NCBI RefSeq assembly: GCF_009906855.1
Contig: NZ_CP047650.1
Location: forward strand, 2,728,001-2,792,000
Length of the DNA stretch: 64,000 nucleotides
Reading direction: 5' to 3'
DNA from: Xylophilus rhododendri
GTDB taxonomy: Bacteria > Pseudomonadota > Gammaproteobacteria > Burkholderiales > Burkholderiaceae_C
Of the stretch, positions 1,897-39,322 are shown one piece after another; within the stretch, counting starts at the first letter, position 1; the number at the start of each line of letters is the position of its first letter. The translations under genes and the position numbers were made by a program. The notes beneath the pieces were generated by a model, which saw nothing but the letters and a program-made list of their open reading frames with translations, ran no database searches and had not been told where the DNA came from.

Positions 1897-2991
1897 TTAG
1901 CCGGCCACCAGCTCCCGGAACGGCGCGCCATTGAGCGGCCGCGCCGCCATGGTCTTCACCGCCGTGTTGATCGCGCCGATATGGTCCGGCGTGGTGCCGC
2001 AGCAGCCGCCGACGATATTGACCAGCCCCTCGGCCGCGAACTCGTGCAGCAGGCGGGCGGTGACGTCCGGCGTCTCGTCGAAGCCGGTGTCGCTCATCGG
2101 ATTGGGCAGGCCGGCGTTGGGATAGCAGCAGATGAAAGTGTCGGCCGCGGCCTTGTGCAGCTCCTGGATGTAGGGCCGCATCAGGGTGGCGCCCAGGGCG
2201 CAGTTCAGGCCGATGGCCAGCGGTTCGGCATGGCGCACGCTGTGCCAGAAGGCGGTGACGGTCTGGCCCGACAGGATGCGGCCGGAGGCGTCGGTGACGG
2301 TGCCGCTGATGATCAGCGGCAGGCGCTCGCCGCTGTTCTCGAACCATTCGGCGATGGCGAAGAGCGCGGCCTTGGCGTTGAGTGTGTCGAAGATGGTCTC
2401 GACCAGGAACAGGTCGCAGCCGCCCTCGGCCAGGGCCTCGGCCTGCTCGTAGTAGGCCTGGCGCAGGGTTTCGAAATCGACGTTGCGGGCGCCGGGGTCG
2501 TTCACGTCGGGGCTGATCGAGGCGGTCTTGGGCGTGGGGCCGAAGGCGCCGGCGACGAAGCGGGGTTTGTCGGGGGTGCTGAACTTGTCGCAGGCGGCGC
2601 GCGCCAGGCGGGCCGAGGCCAGGTTCATCTCGCGCGCCAGGGCGGCCATGTCGTAGTCCTCCTGCGCGATGGTGGTGGCGCCGAAGGTGTTGGTCTCGAT
2701 CATGTCGGCGCCGGCGGCGAGGTAGCCCTCGTGGATGGCGGAGATCACGTCCGGCCGGGTCAGCGAGAGCAGCTCGTTGTTGCCCTTCACGTCGCGGTGG
2801 AAGTCGGTGAAGCGGCTGCCCGCGCCGTCCGCGCCGCCATAGCCCTCGCCGCGGTACTGGGCTTCGCCGAGCTTGAAGCGCTGGATCATGGTGCCCATGG
2901 CGCCGTCGAGGATGGCGATGCGTTCGGACAGGATGGCCGGCAGAGCGGCGGCTCGGGTGTAGCGGGGGTGGCGGGCGGTGGGGCTGGGCAT
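1897..2991 (-). CDS. metH: Methionine synthase, N-terminal homocysteine-binding half (split MetH)
   Basis: Zinc-dependent homocysteine S-methyltransferase domain of cobalamin-dependent methionine synthase, here a stand-alone protein of 364 residues. ATG at 2991 gives MPSPTARHP. The N-terminal [11 protein letters not shown] motif is characteristic. Zinc ligands are visible as the Cys of GLNCALGA and the adjacent Cys pair of [12 protein letters not shown]. It lacks the pterin, cobalamin and reactivation modules. These are encoded by a separate gene at 36575-39322, about 34 kb away, and the two products should act together to methylate homocysteine. No SAH-type riboswitch is visible upstream here, unlike at the other half. 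A 211-bp region separates it from the divergent recQ. Confidence 0.94.
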
Positions 2992-5385: not shown

Positions 5386-6132
5386 TCAATCCCGGGTGGC
5401 GATGTCCGCCCGCACCCGCTTGAGGTGGCCTTCGATGTAGAAGGCCGCCGCATCCCCATCCCCGGACACCACGGCTTCGTAGATCAGCCGATGCTCCGCC
5501 ACATAGAGCTGGATGCGCTGCGCGTCGTAGATGCCGTCGTCGCGCAGGCGCTGCCACAAGGGCTGGTCCATCGACTTGGCGATCTCGTCGGCGATCTTCA
5601 CCACCAGGGCGTCGCGGGTCATCACCGCCAGCTGGCGGTGGAACATCGAGTCGGCGGTGTTCCAGGCGGCCTGCTGGGCGGGGTCGCCGATGTCCTGCAC
5701 GTCACTCATCTGCTGCAGGTAGCGCTCGGCCAGCGGGTCGCGCGCCTTGTGGCGGGCCGCCAGGCGGGCGATGGCCGGCTCGATCAGCATGCGTACGTCG
5801 AGGATGGAACTGGGGCTGATGTCGGCGTCGCGCGGCGGTGCCGGCGGGGCCTGGTCATCGGGCGGCGCGCCGGCATCGGCGGCGGTGGTGACATAGGTGC
5901 CGGAGCCGTGCCGCGTCAGCACATGGCCCTCGTTCTGCAGCGCGCCTATGGCTTCCCGCACCGCCGGGCGGCTGACACCGAAACGCAGCGCCAGCTCCCG
6001 CTCGGACGGCAGGCGCGAGCCGCCGGGAAAGGCGCCGCTGACGATGCCCGAGCGGATCGCGTCGGCGATCTGCTCGTAGACCTGCTTGGCCCTGAAACCC
6101 GGCGCGGCGATGAGGGGCTCGACTGAATTCAT
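5386..6132 (-). CDS. GntR family transcriptional regulator, FadR/FCD type
   Basis: DNA-binding regulator of 248 residues. The N-terminal winged helix (about residues 10-75) has the classic LPSERELALRFGVSRP recognition segment. A Pro/Asp-rich linker (about 85-110) leads to a C-terminal all-helical FCD ligand-binding domain with the metal-ligand pattern expected of the family (Asp and His residues around DSMFHRQL and AEHRLIYEAV). I chose ATG at 6132 (MNSVEPL) over an upstream extension because the domain begins soon after it. It is divergent from the binding-protein/OCD/molybdoenzyme/AcnX genes, and the shared intergenic region carries repeated inverted elements. It is therefore probably the local repressor, with the pathway substrate or an intermediate as inducer. 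Confidence 0.92.
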   Translation of the reverse strand: MNSVEPLIAAPGFRAKQVYEQIADAIRSGIVSGAFPGGSRLPSERELALRFGVSRPAVREAIGALQNEGHVLTRHGSGTYVTTAADAGAPPDDQAPPAPPRDADISPSSILDVRMLIEPAIARLAARHKARDPLAERYLQQMSDVQDIGDPAQQAAWNTADSMFHRQLAVMTRDALVVKIADEIAKSMDQPLWQRLRDDGIYDAQRIQLYVAEHRLIYEAVVSGDGDAAAFYIEGHLKRVRADIATRD

Positions 6133-6326: not shown

Positions 6327-7289
6327 ATGAAGTCCTTTGCTCCGTTCGCCCTGGCCCTGTCCTGCCTCGCCGCGCTCGTGCCGGCGGTTTCCGTCGCCGA
6401 GGCCTATCCCACCAAGCCGGTGGAAATCGTGGTCGCCTACCCGCCCGGCGGCGGCAGCGACATGACGGCGCGCACCATCGCCGACGCGGCGCGTCCGCTG
6501 ATGAGCATTCCGCCGCTGGTCATCAACCGGCCCGGCGCCAGCGGCTCGATCGGCTGGGCCTATGTGGCCACCGGCGCGCCGGACGGCTACCGGGTGATCG
6601 TCGTCACGCCCGAGATCCTGGTCGTGCCGCTGATGGGCATCGGCAAGACGACCGTGCAGGACTTCCAGCCGATCGCCCGGTTCTCGGACGACCCGCTGTC
6701 GCTCACCGTGCGCGCCGACGCGCCCTGGAAGACGATCGACGAGTTCATCGCCTATGCCAAGGCGCATCCGGGCGAGGTCACCATCTCCAACGCCGGCAAC
6801 GGCACGCTCTCGCACATCGCCACCGCCGCCATGGGCGACAAGCTGGGCACCGCCTTCCAGCCCGTGCCCTACCAGGGCACCACGCCAGCGGTGATGGGCG
6901 TGCTGACCGGCGACGTGATGGCCACCACCATCCCCAACGCCGAACTGCGCGAACATGTGAAAGCCGGCAAGATGCGCACCCTGGCGGTGATGTCCGAGAA
7001 GGCCGCGCCCGGCATGGACGGCATCCCCACCTTCAAGGAGAAAGGCTACGACCTGCAGTTCAGCGGCTGGCGCGGCATTGCGCTGCCCAAGGCCGCGCCC
7101 AAGGAGGTGGTGGACTACTGGCGCGACGTGGCGCGGCGCATCTCCGAATCGCCCGCCTTCCGCACCACCGTCATCAAGCAGAACCTGACACCCGCCTTCG
7201 CCGACGCGCCGGAATTCACCGCCGCCATCGCCAAACAGGACGACAGCTTCAAGAAGATGTGGCCCGGCCTGAAACTCGACAAGCAGTAA
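6327..7289 (+). CDS. Tripartite tricarboxylate (Bug/TctC) family substrate-binding protein
   Basis: Periplasmic solute receptor of 320 residues. ATG at 6327 follows a GGGAG ribosome binding site about 8 nt upstream. A Sec signal peptide covers residues 1-26, with probable cleavage after AEA. The mature start YPTKPVEIVVAYPPGGGSD is the standard Bug-family opening, and the NRPGASGSIG ligand-binding motif follows. No TctA/TctB membrane partners are in the window, which is usual for orphan Bug receptors in Burkholderiales. It is the first gene of a four-gene cluster, with 7 bp to the OCD gene. It presumably delivers, or senses, the carboxylated substrate of the pathway. The ligand is unknown. Confidence 0.95.
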   Translation: MKSFAPFALALSCLAALVPAVSVAEAYPTKPVEIVVAYPPGGGSDMTARTIADAARPLMSIPPLVINRPGASGSIGWAYVATGAPDGYRVIVVTPEILVVPLMGIGKTTVQDFQPIARFSDDPLSLTVRADAPWKTIDEFIAYAKAHPGEVTISNAGNGTLSHIATAAMGDKLGTAFQPVPYQGTTPAVMGVLTGDVMATTIPNAELREHVKAGKMRTLAVMSEKAAPGMDGIPTFKEKGYDLQFSGWRGIALPKAAPKEVVDYWRDVARRISESPAFRTTVIKQNLTPAFADAPEFTAAIAKQDDSFKKMWPGLKLDKQ

Positions 7290-7296
7290 GGAACCC

Positions 7297-8277
7297 ATGG
7301 CAGTGCACGATGCCCTGCAGGTGATAGACGGCCCCGCGACGGCCGCCGCCCTGCCCTTCGCCCCCCTGATCGCCGCGCTGCGCCAGGCCTTCGCCACGCC
7401 GATGGAGGTGCCGCTGCGGCATCACCACCACATCGAGCAGCCCGACGGCAAGACCGCCACGGTGCTGCTGATGCCGGGCTGGGCCGATGGCTATATCGGC
7501 ATCAAGCTGGTGACGATCTTCCCGGGCAATTCGGCGCGCTCGCTGCCGGGGCTGTTCGCCACCTACCTGCTCTGCGACGGCCAGACCGGCCAGCACCTGG
7601 CGCTGATCGACGGCAACCAGATCACCGCGCGGCGCACGGTGGCCGTGTCGGCGCTGGCGGCCTCCTATCTCGCTCGCACCGATGCGAAGCGGCTGCTGAT
7701 CCTGGGCGCGGGCCGCATCGCGCGGCTGGTGTGCGAGGCCTATCGCGCGGTGCGCGATATCGAAGAAGTGCGGGTATGGAACCCGACGCCGTCGCGCGCG
7801 CAGGCGCTGGTCGCCGAGCTGCGTGCGGCGGGGGTGCGGGCGGAACTCGCCGGGCCGCTGGAGGACGAGGTGCGCCAGGCCGACATCGTGAGTTGCGCCA
7901 CCCTGTCCACCCAGGCGCTGGTGCGCGGCTCATGGCTGCGGCCGGGCACCCATGTGGACCTGATCGGCGGCTTCACGCCCGGCATGCGCGAGAGCGACGA
8001 CGCGGTGTTCGCGGGTGCCACGGTGGTGGTCGATTCGCTGGACGCGCTGGCCGAGGCGGGCGACCTGATCTCGCCGATCGCCAGCGGGGTGCTCTCGCCC
8101 TCCAGCATCCGCACCCTGCCGATGCTGTGCGACGGCAGCGCTACAGGACGGGTGTCGGCCGAGGAGATCACCGTCTTCAAGGCGGTGGGCACGGCGCTGT
8201 CGGACCTGACCTCGGCCGCGCTGGTCTACCGCGCCACCGGCGCAAGGGCCGAAGCCCCCGCCGAAGCGCTGGCCTGA
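7297..8277 (+). CDS. Ornithine cyclodeaminase/mu-crystallin family protein, possible imino-acid reductase
   Basis: 326-residue cytosolic Rossmann-fold enzyme of the OCD/mu-crystallin family. The NAD(P)-binding glycine motif LGAGRIARLV lies near residues 135-144, and the family segments GYIGIKLVTIFPGN and DGNQITARRT are evident. Family members include ornithine and lysine cyclodeaminases, alanine dehydrogenases and the delta-1-pyrroline-2-carboxylate reductase LhpI. The aconitase X gene two genes downstream makes the reductase role the most attractive reading, because aconitase X dehydrates cis-3-hydroxy-L-proline to the substrate of LhpI. That is inference from context; sequence alone does not fix the activity. 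It is separated by 7 bp from the genes on both sides. Confidence 0.92.
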   Translation: MAVHDALQVIDGPATAAALPFAPLIAALRQAFATPMEVPLRHHHHIEQPDGKTATVLLMPGWADGYIGIKLVTIFPGNSARSLPGLFATYLLCDGQTGQHLALIDGNQITARRTVAVSALAASYLARTDAKRLLILGAGRIARLVCEAYRAVRDIEEVRVWNPTPSRAQALVAELRAAGVRAELAGPLEDEVRQADIVSCATLSTQALVRGSWLRPGTHVDLIGGFTPGMRESDDAVFAGATVVVDSLDALAEAGDLISPIASGVLSPSSIRTLPMLCDGSATGRVSAEEITVFKAVGTALSDLTSAALVYRATGARAEAPAEALA

Positions 8278-8284
8278 GGCTTCG

Positions 8285-11200
8285 ATGGGCGGCACCGCGT
8301 TCAAGCCCGGCTTCTGCACCCTGTGCCGTTCGCGCTGCGGCACGATCCACGAGGTGCGGGACGACCGGCTGATCGCCGTGCGGCCCGACCCGACGCATCC
8401 CACCGGCGAGGCCATGTGCATGAAGGGCCGCGCCGCGCCCGAACTGGTGCACAGCCCGCACCGGGTGCTGACGCCGCTGCGGCGCACGGCGCCCAAGGGC
8501 GCGGCCGATCCGGGCTGGGTGCCGATCGGCTGGGAAGAGGCGCTGTCGGAGACCGCGCGGCGGCTGTCCCAGGTGCGCGAGGAGTCCGGCGCGGAGGCGG
8601 TCGTCTTCGCGGTCACCACGCCCAGCGGCACACCGCTGTCCGACAGCATCGACTGGATCGAGCGTTTCGTGCGCGGCTTCGGCAGCCCCAACCTCTGCTA
8701 CGCCACCGAGATCTGCAACTGGCACAAGGATTTCGCCCATGCCTTCACCTTCGGCAGCGGCATGCCGGTGGCGGACTACGAAAACGCCGAACTGATCCTG
8801 CTGTGGGGACACAACCCGGCCAATACCTGGCTGGCGCAGTCGGGCGCCATCGGCAAGGGCCGTGCTGCGGGCGCCAGGATGCTGGTGGTCGATCCGCGTC
8901 CTACCGCGCTGGCCCGCCAGGCCGATGTGTGGCTGCCGGTGCGGCCGGGCACGGATGCCGCGCTGGCGATGGGCCTCGTGCGGCTGCTGCTGCGTTCGGA
9001 GCGTTTCGACCGGGACTTCGTGCGCGACTGGACCAACGGCCCGCTGCTGGTGCGCGGCGACAACGGCCTGTTCCTGCGTGAATCGGATGTGTGGCCGGGC
9101 GGCGGCGAACGCTTCGTCGCCTGGCAGGACGGCCCTGTGCCGTATGACCCAGACACGCCGGACCAAACCGGCCTGCTGCTGCGTGGCACCGTCCAGGTCA
9201 CGCTGGCCGATGGCCGAACACTGGCCTGCGACACCGCCTTCGAACTGATGGCCCGGGGCGCCGAAAGCTACGACCCGGCCACGGTCGAGGCCCTGACCGG
9301 CGTCGCACCCGACGCCCTGCAGAAGGCAGCCGACCTGCTCGGCGAAAGCCGGCGTGCGGCCTACCACTCCTGGACCGGCATCGGCCAGCACACCAACGCC
9401 ACCCAGGCCGAGCGGGCGGTGGCGACGCTGTATGCCCTGACCGGCGCCTACGACCGCATCGGCGGCAACCGGGTGCGCAAGGCGCAGCCGACACGCGGCG
9501 TCAACCTCTTCGGCCAGATCGCACCGGAGCAGCGGGCCAAGGCGCTAGGCCTGGCCGAACGGCCGCTGGGGCCGCCCTCGCAAGGCTGGGTCACCGCGCG
9601 CGATGTGTACCGCGCCGTGCTGGAGGGCGAGCCCTACCGGCTGCGGGCGATGGTGGCCTTCGGCACCAACCCGCCCGTCTCGCAAGGCGATACCGAACGC
9701 GCGCGCGAGGCCTTGAAGGCACTGGAATTCCACGTCCACTGCGACCTGTTCATGACCCCGGCGGCCGAGTACGCCGACATTTTTTTGCCGGTCAACACGC
9801 CCTGGGAGCGCGAGGGCCTGCGCATCGGCTTCGAGATCAACGACGAGGCCGCCTCGCTGGTGCAGCTGCGCCAGCGCATGGTGAGCCCGCGCGGCGATTC
9901 GCGCTCGGACAACGACATCGTGTTCGACCTGGCGCGGCGACTCGGCCTGGACGAACTGTTCTTCGGCGGCAGCCTGGAGGCCGGCTGGAACCACATGCTG
10001 GAGCCGCTGGGCATCACCGTGGCCGAACTGCGCGCGAATCCCCAGGGCCTGCGTTTTCCGGTCGATGGCAGCGAGGCCAAGTACCGCACGGGCGGCTTCG
10101 CCACGCAGACCCGCCGGGTCGAGCTGTATTCCGAACTGCTGCTGCGCCACGGCCAGCCCGCCGTGGCCACCCATGTGGCGCCGGCCGAGCCGGCGGGCGA
10201 TGCCTTCCCGCTGGTGCTGAGTTCGGCCAAGAACGGCTACTACTGCCACAGCCAGCACCGCAGCCTGGTGTCGCTGCGCAAGCGCGCGCCCGATCCGGTG
10301 GCCGAGATCGCGCCGGCCCTGGCGGCGGCGAGCGGCATCCGCGAAGGCGACTGGGTGCGCATCAGCACCCGGGTCGGCACCGCGCGATTCGTGGCGCGGC
10401 TGGCGCCGGGGCTGGCCGGGGATGTCGTCGTGGCCGAGTTCGGCTGGTGGCAGCCCTGCCCCGAACTCGACCGCGCGGGCGACAGCCTGGCGAGCAATTT
10501 CAACGGCCTGATCGATGCTCGGGCCTGCGACCCGGTGAGCGGCTCGGTGGCCCACCGGTCCTTTCGCTGCGAGCTGGCGCTGGACGCCGCCTGGGCGCAG
10601 AGCCAGCGCCGCTGGGAGGGCTGGAAGACCTTCCGGGTGGCCGAGCTGCGCCAGGAAGCCATCGGCGTGCTGGGCATCCACTTCGAGGCGCTGGAGCCCG
10701 GCCCGCTGCCGGACTACCGGCCCGGCCAGCACATCGAGACCCGCCACGACCTGGACGGCACACCCACCAGCCGGGCCTATTCCCTGACCGGCGCCGCGGT
10801 GGTCCAGGACCGGCGCGGCTACCGCATCGCGGTGCGCCACCAACGCGGGCAGTCGGCCGAGGGCATCGCCTACGAAGGCCTGGTGTCGGGCCATCTGCAC
10901 CGGCAGCTGCGGGTGGGCGACCGGGTGGAGCTGCGGGCGCCTTCGGGCAGCTTCGTCCTTCCCCGGCACAGCGAGCAGCCGCTGGTGCTGGTGGCGGGCG
11001 GCATCGGCATCACGCCCTTCGTCTCGCTGCTGGAGTCGCTGCCCGATGGCGATCCGCTGGAGATGCTGCTGCTGTATGCCAACCAGAACAGCGGCACCCA
11101 TGCCTTCGCCGAGCGACTGGCCTTCCACGCGGCGCGGCTGCCGGGGCTGGTCATCCGCAATCACTACAACGCGCCCTTGCCGCAGGACCGGTTCGACTCC

Positions 11201-11641
11201 GGCGAGCGGCTCAACGGCGCGCATATCGCCGACGAGTGGATCGCCCGACGTGCCCGCGTCTATATGTGCGGCCCGGGTCCGCTGATGGATGCCGTGCGGG
11301 CCGACCTGGTCGCACGCGGCATGCCGGCCTTCGACATCTTCAGCGAGGTGTTCCGCTCGCCGCCCAGGCCGCTGGCCGGGGGCACGCAGTCCTTCGGCGT
11401 GACCTTCGCCCGCTCCGGCCGCCAGGTGCGCTGGTCGCCGCGCGACGGCACGCTGCTGGCCTTCGCCGAATCGCTCGGCGTGACCATGGCCAGCGGCTGC
11501 CGGGTGGGCCAGTGCGAGTCCTGCGCCACGACCGTGCTCTCCGGCGAGGTGCGCCACCTGCACGGCGCCGAGCCGGAAGATGCCAGGGTCTGCCTGAGCT
11601 GCCAGGCCGTGCCGGCCAGCGAACTGGTGCTGGACGCATGA
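8285..11641 (+). CDS. Molybdopterin oxidoreductase fused to FNR-type reductase and 2Fe-2S ferredoxin
   Basis: A 1118-residue single chain with three functional parts. (1) A DMSO-reductase-superfamily unit: N-terminal 4Fe-4S site Cys11, Cys14, Cys18, Cys45; a molybdopterin region in which Cys144 (TEICNWHKD) sits where NapA-type enzymes place the Mo ligand; and a dinucleotide-binding domain at about 640-760. (2) A ferredoxin-NADP reductase-like module: FAD motif RAYS at about 830 and NAD motif AGGIGITPF at about 902, then the CGP motif in VYMCGPGPLMD. (3) A plant-type 2Fe-2S domain with Cys1072, Cys1077, Cys1080 and Cys1106. Electrons could thus pass between NAD(P)H and molybdenum inside one polypeptide. 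There is no Tat signal, so it is cytosolic. It sits 7 bp after the OCD gene and overlaps the AcnX start by 4 bp. Substrate and direction are unknown. Confidence 0.92.
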   Translation: MGGTAFKPGFCTLCRSRCGTIHEVRDDRLIAVRPDPTHPTGEAMCMKGRAAPELVHSPHRVLTPLRRTAPKGAADPGWVPIGWEEALSETARRLSQVREESGAEAVVFAVTTPSGTPLSDSIDWIERFVRGFGSPNLCYATEICNWHKDFAHAFTFGSGMPVADYENAELILLWGHNPANTWLAQSGAIGKGRAAGARMLVVDPRPTALARQADVWLPVRPGTDAALAMGLVRLLLRSERFDRDFVRDWTNGPLLVRGDNGLFLRESDVWPGGGERFVAWQDGPVPYDPDTPDQTGLLLRGTVQVTLADGRTLACDTAFELMARGAESYDPATVEALTGVAPDALQKAADLLGESRRAAYHSWTGIGQHTNATQAERAVATLYALTGAYDRIGGNRVRKAQPTRGVNLFGQIAPEQRAKALGLAERPLGPPSQGWVTARDVYRAVLEGEPYRLRAMVAFGTNPPVSQGDTERAREALKALEFHVHCDLFMTPAAEYADIFLPVNTPWEREGLRIGFEINDEAASLVQLRQRMVSPRGDSRSDNDIVFDLARRLGLDELFFGGSLEAGWNHMLEPLGITVAELRANPQGLRFPVDGSEAKYRTGGFATQTRRVELYSELLLRHGQPAVATHVAPAEPAGDAFPLVLSSAKNGYYCHSQHRSLVSLRKRAPDPVAEIAPALAAASGIREGDWVRISTRVGTARFVARLAPGLAGDVVVAEFGWWQPCPELDRAGDSLASNFNGLIDARACDPVSGSVAHRSFRCELALDAAWAQSQRRWEGWKTFRVAELRQEAIGVLGIHFEALEPGPLPDYRPGQHIETRHDLDGTPTSRAYSLTGAAVVQDRRGYRIAVRHQRGQSAEGIAYEGLVSGHLHRQLRVGDRVELRAPSGSFVLPRHSEQPLVLVAGGIGITPFVSLLESLPDGDPLEMLLLYANQNSGTHAFAERLAFHAARLPGLVIRNHYNAPLPQDRFDSGERLNGAHIADEWIARRARVYMCGPGPLMDAVRADLVARGMPAFDIFSEVFRSPPRPLAGGTQSFGVTFARSGRQVRWSPRDGTLLAFAESLGVTMASGCRVGQCESCATTVLSGEVRHLHGAEPEDARVCLSCQAVPASELVLDA

Positions 11642-13350
11642 CGGCGCTGCACCTGCAGGCCCAGTCCTGGACCGAAGGCAGGGCGGCGGGCGAACTGCTC
11701 TGGTCCGACACGCCGCTGAGTTTCTGGGGCGGCATAGACCCCGCCACCGGCACCGTCATCGACCAGCACCACCCCCTGTGCGGCCAGAGCGTGCGCGACC
11801 GCGTCCTGGCCCTGCCCAGCGGCCGCGGCTCCTGCACCGGCAGCAGCGTGATGCTGGAGCTGCTGCTGAGCGGCAACGCACCGCGCGCCCTGGTGCTGGC
11901 GGGCGTGGACGACATCCTGCTGCTGGGCGTGCTGGTGGCGCAGCGCATGTTCGGCCGGAGCATTCCGGTGCTCAGCCTGTCGCCGCAGGATTACGCGGCG
12001 CTGGAGGGCGCGGCTACGGTCCACGTCGGGCCGGATGCGGGCGATGCACCGGGCGCCAGCCTGATCACCCGAACGGCAGCCGTGCCGCCACTGGCGCTCA
12101 CCGCCCGCGACCAGGCCCTGCTCGCAGGCGCCGAAGGCCGCGCGCGGCAGGTGGCGATGGAGATCATCGTGCGTATGGCCGGCGTGGCCGGCGCCCCCCG
12201 GCTGATCGACATCCGGCAGGTGCATGTCGACGGCTGCATCTACACGGGCGACGCCTGCCTGCGTTTCGCGCAGCAGCTGGTGGACTGGCAGGGGCGGGTG
12301 GCGGTGCCGACCAGCCTCAACGCCATCTCGGTGGACCGCTGCGGCTGGCGCGGGCAAGGCGTGGCGCCGGCCTTCGGCGAGCCGGCCGAAGCCCTGGCCC
12401 AGGCCTATGTGGACCTGGGCGCCGCGCCCACCTACACCTGCGCGCCCTATCTGCTGAACGGCGCGCCGCGCCTGGGCGAGCAGATCGCCTGGGCCGAGTC
12501 GAACGCGGTCATCTACGCCAACAGCGTGATCGGCGCCCGCACCGCCAAGTATCCCGATTTCCTCGACATCCTGATGGCGCTGACCGGCCGCGCGCCCGAA
12601 GCCGGCTGCCACCTGGACCAGGGACGCAAGGCCGCCATGCGCATCGCCGTGGACCTTCCCGAGGGATTCGACGACTCCCTCTACCCGCTGCTCGGCTACC
12701 AGGCCGGCTTGCAGAGCGGCCGGGAGATTCCGCTGCTGGCCGGCATGGAATCGACCCGGCCCGTCGCGGACGACCTGCGGGCCTTCGGCGCGGCTTTCGC
12801 CACCAGTTCGGCCGCGCCCATGTTCCACATCGCCGGCATCACGCCGGAGGCACGCGATGCGCAGGCGGTGATGGCCGCGGGCCTCGCCATTCCCACGCAG
12901 CGCATCGACCGCGCGGCGCTGCTGAATGCCTGGCACGAACTCAACCCGGCCAGGACCCGTCAGGTCGAGCTGGTCGCCCTGGGCAATCCGCATTTCTCGA
13001 TCCGCGAGATCGTGTGGCTGGCCGCCCTCTGCGCCGGGCGTACCCGGCATGCGGATACCGATGTGGTCGTCACCACCAGCCGCTTCGTGCTCGACAGCCC
13101 GGAGGCCGCCGGCAGCGTGGCCGCCCTGCGGGCCTTCGGCGTGCGATTCGTGGTCGATACCTGCTGGTGCATGGTGCAGGAGCCGGTGATCGCGCCGCGG
13201 GTGCGCACGGTGATGACCAACTCCGGCAAATACGCCCATTACGCGCCCGGCCTCACCGGCCGGCAGACCCGCTTCGGCAGCCTGGCCGATTGCGTCGATG
13301 CGGCCTGCACCGGCCAGGCCCCGGAGGGCCCGCCGGACTGGCTGCGCTGA
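11638..13350 (+). CDS. Aconitase X, small (DUF126) and large (DUF521) domains in one chain
   Basis: 570 residues. ATG at 11638 overlaps the previous stop as ATGA, indicating translational coupling. The N-terminal 140 or so residues are the small swivelling domain ([18 protein letters not shown]). From about 150 onward comes the large domain with the family segments around Cys200 (VDGCIYTGD), Cys268 (TYTCAPY) and the C-terminal TCWCMV (Cys509, Cys511), which include likely iron-sulfur ligands. Characterised bacterial aconitase X enzymes dehydrate cis-3-hydroxy-L-proline, and archaeal ones dehydrate phosphomevalonate. Many are encoded as two subunits; here they are joined. With the OCD-family gene nearby, a hydroxy-amino-acid dehydratase role is likely, but the substrate is not proven by sequence. 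Confidence 0.92.

Positions 13351-36574: not shown

Positions 36575-39322
<2,748 letters not shown>

Follow-up and report, generated by a model that had tools for sequence, protein, structure and literature searches.

A single-chain molybdenum reductase gene beside a ketimine reductase gene in Xylophilus rhododendri: a possible link to proline and pipecolate metabolism

What might a molybdenum (Mo) oxidoreductase act upon when it carries its own flavin/NAD reductase and its own ferredoxin in one polypeptide? The question is raised by a gene at positions 8285..11641 of a 64,000-nucleotide stretch of the Xylophilus rhododendri genome (contig NZ_CP047650.1, positions 2,728,001 to 2,792,000; hereafter the window), which belongs to an assembly of 5.87 Mb in 2 contigs. 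We suggest, with a probability of roughly 40%, that its product is a cytosolic, self-sufficient Mo reductase that turns an imported oxidised cyclic imino acid into a ketimine, most likely by removing oxygen from nitrogen, and that a neighbouring enzyme takes the ketimine on to proline or pipecolate. Most of the functional information is carried by the adjacent Delta1-pyrroline-2-carboxylate (Pyr2C) reductase and a hydroxyproline dehydratase, both absent from the earlier note on this DNA, which had been made from the sequence alone.

Make-up of the fused chain

The gene is a single open frame of 1118 amino acids, and this frame is real and intact. A frameshift or an assembly join, the danger named in the earlier note, is ruled out, since Mo, NAD-binding and Fer2 domains occur together in 119 of the best 120 proteins (query included) of 2905 protein matches, and one of these 120 is 84% identical over 100% of the query. 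Six Pfam matches, each over its curated cut-off, lie in the chain, whose parts are as follows.

8285..11641, plus strand: fused Mo oxidoreductase, flavin/NAD reductase and 2Fe-2S ferredoxin; one open frame
8303..8452, plus strand: 4Fe-4S domain with C11, C14, C18 and C45 (Pfam PF04879, Molybdop_Fe4S4, residues 7-56; conservation)
8462..9937, plus strand: molybdopterin oxidoreductase domain with the signature EICNWHKDxAH, which includes C144 (Pfam PF00384, residues 60-551; signature by conservation)
8714..8716, plus strand: codon of C144, the probable metal ligand (aligns with the ligand cysteine of acetylene hydratase in PDB alignments)
10211..10555, plus strand: molybdopterin dinucleotide-binding domain (Pfam PF01568, Molydop_binding, residues 643-757)
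10712..11299, plus strand: flavin- and NAD-binding domains with R830-x-Y-S and GGIGITP at 905-911 (FAD_binding_6, residues 810-890; NAD_binding_1, residues 902-1005)
11411..11614, plus strand: plant-type 2Fe-2S ferredoxin domain with C1072, C1077, C1080 and C1106 (Pfam PF00111, Fer2, residues 1043-1110)

The Mo domain, which spans about residues 1-775, has the domain order of the dimethyl sulfoxide (DMSO) reductase superfamily (Fe4S4, molybdopterin, dinucleotide-binding), and it is followed by a reductase module in the order flavin, NAD, 2Fe-2S with four ferredoxin cysteines, as indicated by Pfam, conservation and fold; the predicted model is poor in the ferredoxin domain (predicted local distance difference test below 50 at 1070-1079 and 1093-1099). 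In a 95-sequence alignment, three members of which are Mo-only relatives and one a concatenation of two separate genes, C11, C14 and C18 are kept in 94 sequences and C45 and C144 in all 95, while C1072, C1077 and C1080 are kept in 91 and C1106 in 90, with four gaps at each of these positions. The earlier description of a self-contained superfamily member with its own reductase and ferredoxin is thus borne out by domains, alignment and fold, and the cofactor motifs and residue numbers it gave are all correct and near-invariant. The cytosolic placement it proposed is also supported as probable: by eye, the Fe4S4 motif begins as early as residue 11, with no leader before it. MobA is found over its cut-off in the window's genome by model search, and a Mo-bis(pyranopterin guanine dinucleotide) (Mo-bisPGD) cofactor is predicted for the enzyme.

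Among solved structures, phthalate dioxygenase reductase (PDR) matches the whole reductase module, and flavohaemoglobin is the closer match to residues 778-1025 by both sequence and fold. Flavohaemoglobins carry flavin adenine dinucleotide (FAD) and PDR carries flavin mononucleotide (FMN). A flavin/NAD module, as the earlier note had it, is present, and its domain order is that of the PDR/VanB type; FAD would agree with the flavohaemoglobin match, FMN with the PDR match over the full module. Modules of the oxygenase/flavohaemoglobin type draw electrons from NAD(P)H; those of PDR, VanB and self-sufficient P450s serve oxygenases or P450, whereas the partner here is a Mo enzyme.

Acetylene hydratase of Pelobacter acetylenicus (2e7z) is both the best PDB profile match of the Mo domain (E 1.2e-80) and its nearest solved fold, although the chain matched, of 727 residues, lacks both reductase and ferredoxin parts. 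In the PDB alignments C144 lies against its ligand cysteine, C141. Acetylene hydratase has an active-site Asp13 and a hydrophobic Ile142 adjoining the ligand cysteine; in the fused enzyme these become Arg15 and Asn145 (R15 in 88 and N145 in 92 of the 95 aligned sequences). The motif EICNWHKDxAH around C144 marks the family (W146 kept in 93 of the 95, H147 in 92, K148 in 94, D149 in 93 and H152 in 90), and CNWHKD is retained in two of the three Mo-only relatives. Soluble formate dehydrogenases (FdhF, FdsA) have the superfamily and the 4Fe-4S and Mo domains in common with the fused enzyme (TIGR01591, E 8.8e-71), but its score on that model is 238.9 bits against a cut-off of 666.25. In formate dehydrogenases a cysteine or selenocysteine is followed by histidine; the selenocysteine-His pair of FdhH is Cys-Asn (C144-N145) here. 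Assimilatory nitrate reductases are likewise cytosolic members of the superfamily fed by NAD(P)H in one chain, some of them being fused to a CysJ-type flavoprotein, but the fused enzyme reaches 156.8 bits on the NasC model NF047855 (cut-off 1100) and its reductase module is of another type; one relative (L116) carries a nasC label in its record. With the N-hydroxyl reductases mARC and YcbX the likeness is a functional analogy only: Pfam gave six matches at E 0.001, and MOSC is not one of them. Of 43 NCBIfam models matched, the 25 listed all score below their cut-offs with the fused protein. Identity as a formate dehydrogenase, nitrate reductase, BisC-type enzyme or acetylene hydratase is ruled out by model cut-offs and active-site residues, and by these comparisons of sequence the Mo domain is a superfamily member outside every named family tested.

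The formate dehydrogenases among the relatives raise the matter of direction. NAD+-dependent formate dehydrogenases pass electrons from Mo to NAD, and the fused enzyme might by analogy oxidise its substrate at the Mo site and reduce NAD+ in its module. We regard this as highly improbable, given that the module is of the oxygenase/flavohaemoglobin type and that asparagine follows C144 where formate dehydrogenase H has histidine.

A ketimine reductase next door

The genes around the fused gene in the window are these.

5386..6132, minus strand: divergent GntR/FadR-family (FCD) regulator (Pfam GntR and FCD; start by coding score)
6327..7289, plus strand: TctC/Bug-type solute-binding protein (Pfam TctC, E 5.7e-46; start by coding score)
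7297..8277, plus strand: ornithine-cyclodeaminase-family reductase of Delta1-pyrroline-2-carboxylate/Delta1-piperideine-2-carboxylate (NCBIfam NF004793, 417.9 bits against 322)
11638..13350, plus strand: gene 3' of the Mo gene (NCBIfam NF051439, 849 bits against a cut-off of 700)

The reductase gene, for which an alternative start is possible at 7303, is ruled out as a true ornithine cyclodeaminase by its score on PRK07589 (117.9 against a cut-off of 350), whereas the Pyr2C/Delta1-piperideine-2-carboxylate (P2C) model passes. The ATG of the 3' gene, at 11638, and the stop of the Mo gene share a 4-base overlap, and aconitase X (AcnX), a hydroxyproline dehydratase, is among the window's genes. 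Genes of 3-hydroxyproline catabolism (trans-3-hydroxy-L-proline dehydratase, aconitase X, Pyr2C reductase) neighbour the Mo gene in the window and in three members of its clade. According to PMC4113996, members of the ornithine-cyclodeaminase and MLD2 families that lie in neighbourhoods of this kind act as Pyr2C reductases; the string 'molybd' occurs nowhere in the main text of that paper or of Watanabe et al. 2016 (PMC5144071). In the window's genome a 1345-amino-acid frame matches proline dehydrogenase (E 6e-11), and a search for AmaB gave no match at E 1e-60, an empty answer that is weak evidence; proline is for these reasons the likely end product there. Elsewhere in the window MetH looks split, judged by eye, into a homocysteine methyltransferase part (1897-2991, minus strand) and a pterin/B12 part (36575-39292, minus strand) about 34 kb away.

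The pairing with the reductase recurs among relatives. Neighbourhoods were counted in the best 80 of 312 loci from a genome scan; L102, L103 and L104, being the same contigs as L019, L060 and L013, were not counted a second time. The counts vary with tool thresholds, genes in unannotated loci were called by a coding-score script, and proteins described as seen by eye were judged without models. A reductase partner (at least 40% identical) is immediately adjacent, that is, on the same strand with a gap of at most 150 bp, in 46 of the 80 loci and elsewhere in the locus in 6. All five partners scanned against NCBIfam (window, L009, L071, L077 and L135) pass the Pyr2C/P2C cut-off, and the Mo-protein tree correlates with the reductase tree (n=52; Mantel r 0.66, a value reached in 0 of 999 permutations). 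An AtoE-like short-chain fatty acid (SCFA; carboxylate) transporter (PF02667) is present in 51 of 80 loci; a LysR-type regulator, as a rule in divergent orientation, accompanies 45 of the 83 loci clustered; GntR or LysR regulators flank many relatives. The window lies inside a 9-member clade (FastTree support 0.995) to which all four AcnX loci (window, L014, L068 and L071) belong; L071 also holds an MLD2-family gene, over no cut-off, and a few loci hold a trans-3-hydroxyproline dehydratase.

Genes further along point to the fate of the product. A plasmid of Rhodococcus opacus carries, after the Mo gene, reductase and transporter and on the opposite strand, an annotated proline dehydrogenase gene and a Delta1-pyrroline-5-carboxylate (P5C) dehydrogenase gene, the latter at 827.3 bits against a cut-off of 613.6, and in L101 a P5C dehydrogenase (815.5 against 613.6) comes after the Mo gene and transporter. 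An AmaA-like pipecolate oxidase is encoded in 6 of 80 loci, and in L135, and an AmaB-like Delta1-piperideine-6-carboxylate dehydrogenase in 5 of 80 (the L083 copy scores 806.6 against 730); these genes occur mostly in Bradyrhizobium loci, together with LIV-type transporter genes, reductase and Mo genes. The L084 locus has a 48% paralogue that follows an aminobutyraldehyde-dehydrogenase-family gene (818.7 against a subfamily cut-off of 615; 842.9 against 909.3 on the stricter TIGR03374), a neighbour that would point to 1-pyrroline metabolism. What the neighbourhoods share is a cyclic ketimine with a ring of five or six members.

In the scheme that we favour, hydride from NAD(P)H would reach the flavin, and electrons would pass by way of the 2Fe-2S and 4Fe-4S clusters to Mo-bisPGD bound through Cys144. 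At that centre a cyclic imino acid with a ring of five or six members, imported in an oxidised form, would take up two electrons, in what we infer to be the reductive direction, and would lose oxygen from its nitrogen; the substrate might be a cyclic nitrone or an N-hydroxy form of proline or pipecolate, the N-O bond itself being a guess. The product would be Delta1-pyrroline-2-carboxylate or Delta1-piperideine-2-carboxylate, since gene context suggests entry at the ketimine; the adjacent reductase would convert it to L-proline (window) or L-pipecolate (Bradyrhizobium-type loci), either of which would then be oxidised for carbon and nitrogen, and aconitase X would channel cis-3-hydroxy-L-proline into the same ketimine. 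We favour N-O reduction because it works for rings of either size, is a two-electron step and belongs to the usual repertoire of the DMSO reductase superfamily. Alpha-deamination of N5-hydroxyornithine or N6-hydroxylysine would yield cyclic nitrones of this kind. A bolder and rather doubtful proposal is that the family constitutes a new class of NAD(P)H-driven Mo reductase that deoxygenates N-oxygenated pyrrolidine- and piperidine-2-carboxylates and passes the ketimine on to the breakdown of proline or pipecolate, with candidate substrates such as nitrones from siderophore N-hydroxyornithine or N-hydroxylysine, or plant N-hydroxypipecolate. The earlier note had put forward N-oxides, hydroxyl removal and hydroxy-imino acids; as candidates these fit the neighbourhood.

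The same gene pair could serve a different two-electron step. Pyrrole-2-carboxylate differs from the neighbour's substrate by exactly one such step, and the AtoE-like transporter would suit a small monocarboxylate without an ammonium group, so that the enzyme might dearomatise imported pyrrole-2-carboxylate to Delta1-pyrroline-2-carboxylate, to be made into proline by the neighbour. Although this is the main rival to N-O removal, we think it fairly unlikely: we know of no dearomatising member of the superfamily, the six-membered loci with AmaA/AmaB-like genes would demand a four-electron reduction of picolinate, and the pyrrole-2-carboxylate couple, on a rough estimate of about -440 to -475 mV, would be uphill from NADH, so that the second step would have to pull. 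Microbial metabolism of pyrrole-2-carboxylate is described in PMC12899673 as known, though poorly understood.

Acetylene hydratase as best solved relative by profile and fold, taken with hydroxyproline dehydratases beside four members of the window's nine-member clade, could instead indicate a reductive dehydroxylase like the gut catechol dehydroxylases, which lie near acetylene hydratase; it would remove a ring hydroxyl, for example from 3-hydroxy-Delta1-pyrroline-2-carboxylate. This appears quite improbable, as dehydratases already strip that hydroxyl without redox cofactors, 3-hydroxy ketimines aromatise spontaneously, and the AmaA/AmaB-like loci have neither AcnX nor trans-3-hydroxyproline dehydratase.

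Spread of the family and loci of other kinds

That the architecture is peculiar to this chain is not supported: it belongs to a large, sporadic family with unfused and Mo-only relatives. At E 1e-150 it turns up in 6 of the 299 genomes from the window's taxonomic family and in 4 of the 369 from the class (own genome included in both; some matches are Mo-domain-only), and it is also plasmid-borne, in 39 plasmid records at E 1e-100, of which the regions of 12, one without annotation, were examined. Plasmid-borne Mo genes of Variovorax paradoxus VAI-C and of Variovorax sp. RA8 (the latter annotated as two pieces) each have a separate PDR/VanB-type gene as neighbour. The 120 best matches to the Mo protein of VAI-C mix Mo-only with fused relatives of much the same identity; the single chain is thus a fusion (or a fission) inside a larger family. 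On two Variovorax plasmids the unfused pair lies beside dihydroorotase, dihydroorotate dehydrogenase and phosphoribosyltransferase genes on the other strand (L112:11396-18940 and L117:11694-18532). The context of the Mo-only relatives L090 (L099), L091 (L100) and L096 is uninformative. The Joint Genome Institute (JGI) names the family 'anaerobic selenocysteine-containing dehydrogenase/ferredoxin-NADP reductase'; its proposed metal ligand is cysteine, not selenocysteine, and many of its hosts are aerobes.

The dedicated SCFA-type transporter was found at E 1e-100 in 4 of 399 genomes searched, and in three of the four (G390, G666 and G713) a Mo-family gene lies beside it; the fourth (G224, L127) has a shortened copy without a Mo-family gene. 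This search in other genomes told little of the transporter's substrate. The shortened copy adjoins MobB-, MoeA- and MoaD-like genes, as seen by eye (L127:6463-10162).

Several observations weigh against N-O removal on a ketimine pathway as the family's function. The sequence itself names no N-O substrate, the fused protein scores 110.1 bits on the BisC/TorZ S/N-oxide reductase model TIGR00509 (cut-off 1017.55), and the proposed nitrones are not, to our knowledge, reported to be common in the environment. The annotated proline dehydrogenase of Rhodococcus opacus reaches 210.6 bits against a cut-off of 500, the AmaA-like proteins score 444-481 against 600 in the four scanned, and AcnX is nearby in only 4 of 81 loci. 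Further, 28 of the 80 loci have no reductase at 40% identity, two of which (L056 and L057) hold a 32-33% relative; when 21 of the 28 were checked, in 20 genomes, a homologue lay elsewhere in 8, and the other 12 had none anywhere at E 1e-40. An MLD2-family homologue occurs in 9 of those 12, which is weak evidence in so broad a family. No ketimine reductase was seen in the stretch examined of L134, L136 and L137. Other contexts count on the same side: relatives with no reductase partner that lie close to genes for efflux or for copper/heavy-metal P-type ATPases (seen by eye in L062 and L065, annotated in L114 on an Enterobacter ludwigii plasmid) and possibly use a different substrate; a 47% relative near annotated nitric-oxide reductase, truncated haemoglobin and Rrf2 regulator genes on a Sphingobium yanoikuyae plasmid (L109:7977-15140); and a 39% identical relative inside a meta-cleavage cluster on a Novosphingobium megaplasmid (L113:7959-11216), where 2-hydroxymuconic semialdehyde dehydrogenase is over its cut-off and hydratase- and decarboxylase-like genes are under theirs. 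Locus L138:8221-14289 holds a Mo-only relative and, after it, a malate/lactate/ureidoglycolate dehydrogenase that passes its cut-off, an HpaI-type aldolase that does not and, by eye, an RraA-like gene, which suggests hydroxy-acid chemistry in that branch. On the strength of the reductase-less loci and of the metal-efflux, nitric-oxide reductase, meta-cleavage and hydroxy-acid contexts, the family may hold more than one substrate.

The metal-efflux, nitric-oxide reductase and meta-cleavage contexts could also be taken to mean that the enzyme detoxifies broadly, by reducing N-hydroxyl compounds, oximes, nitrogen oxides or metal oxyanions, and that amino-acid genes are frequent and not obligatory neighbours of it. 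The sporadic spread would fit, as would loci that hold only the Mo gene and a transporter. We nevertheless judge it decidedly unlikely, because it leaves unexplained both the immediate pairing with one specific ketimine reductase and the agreement of the two trees.

Novelty and meaning

We found no characterised homologue of the single-chain enzyme and, among the papers listed in searches of open-licence PubMed Central, none linking a Mo oxidoreductase to these genes. With no NCBIfam model over its cut-off either, this is apparently a conserved Mo-reductase module feeding proline and pipecolate metabolism that is undescribed so far. The position in the pathway opens the substrate question to a coupled assay with one neighbour gene. 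If our favoured reading is true, it would account for a family that JGI names only as a selenocysteine-containing dehydrogenase/ferredoxin-NADP reductase, and would provide the DMSO reductase superfamily with a simple one-protein model of electron transfer that could be set beside the self-sufficient P450s. Molybdenum would then join the catabolism of proline and pipecolate.

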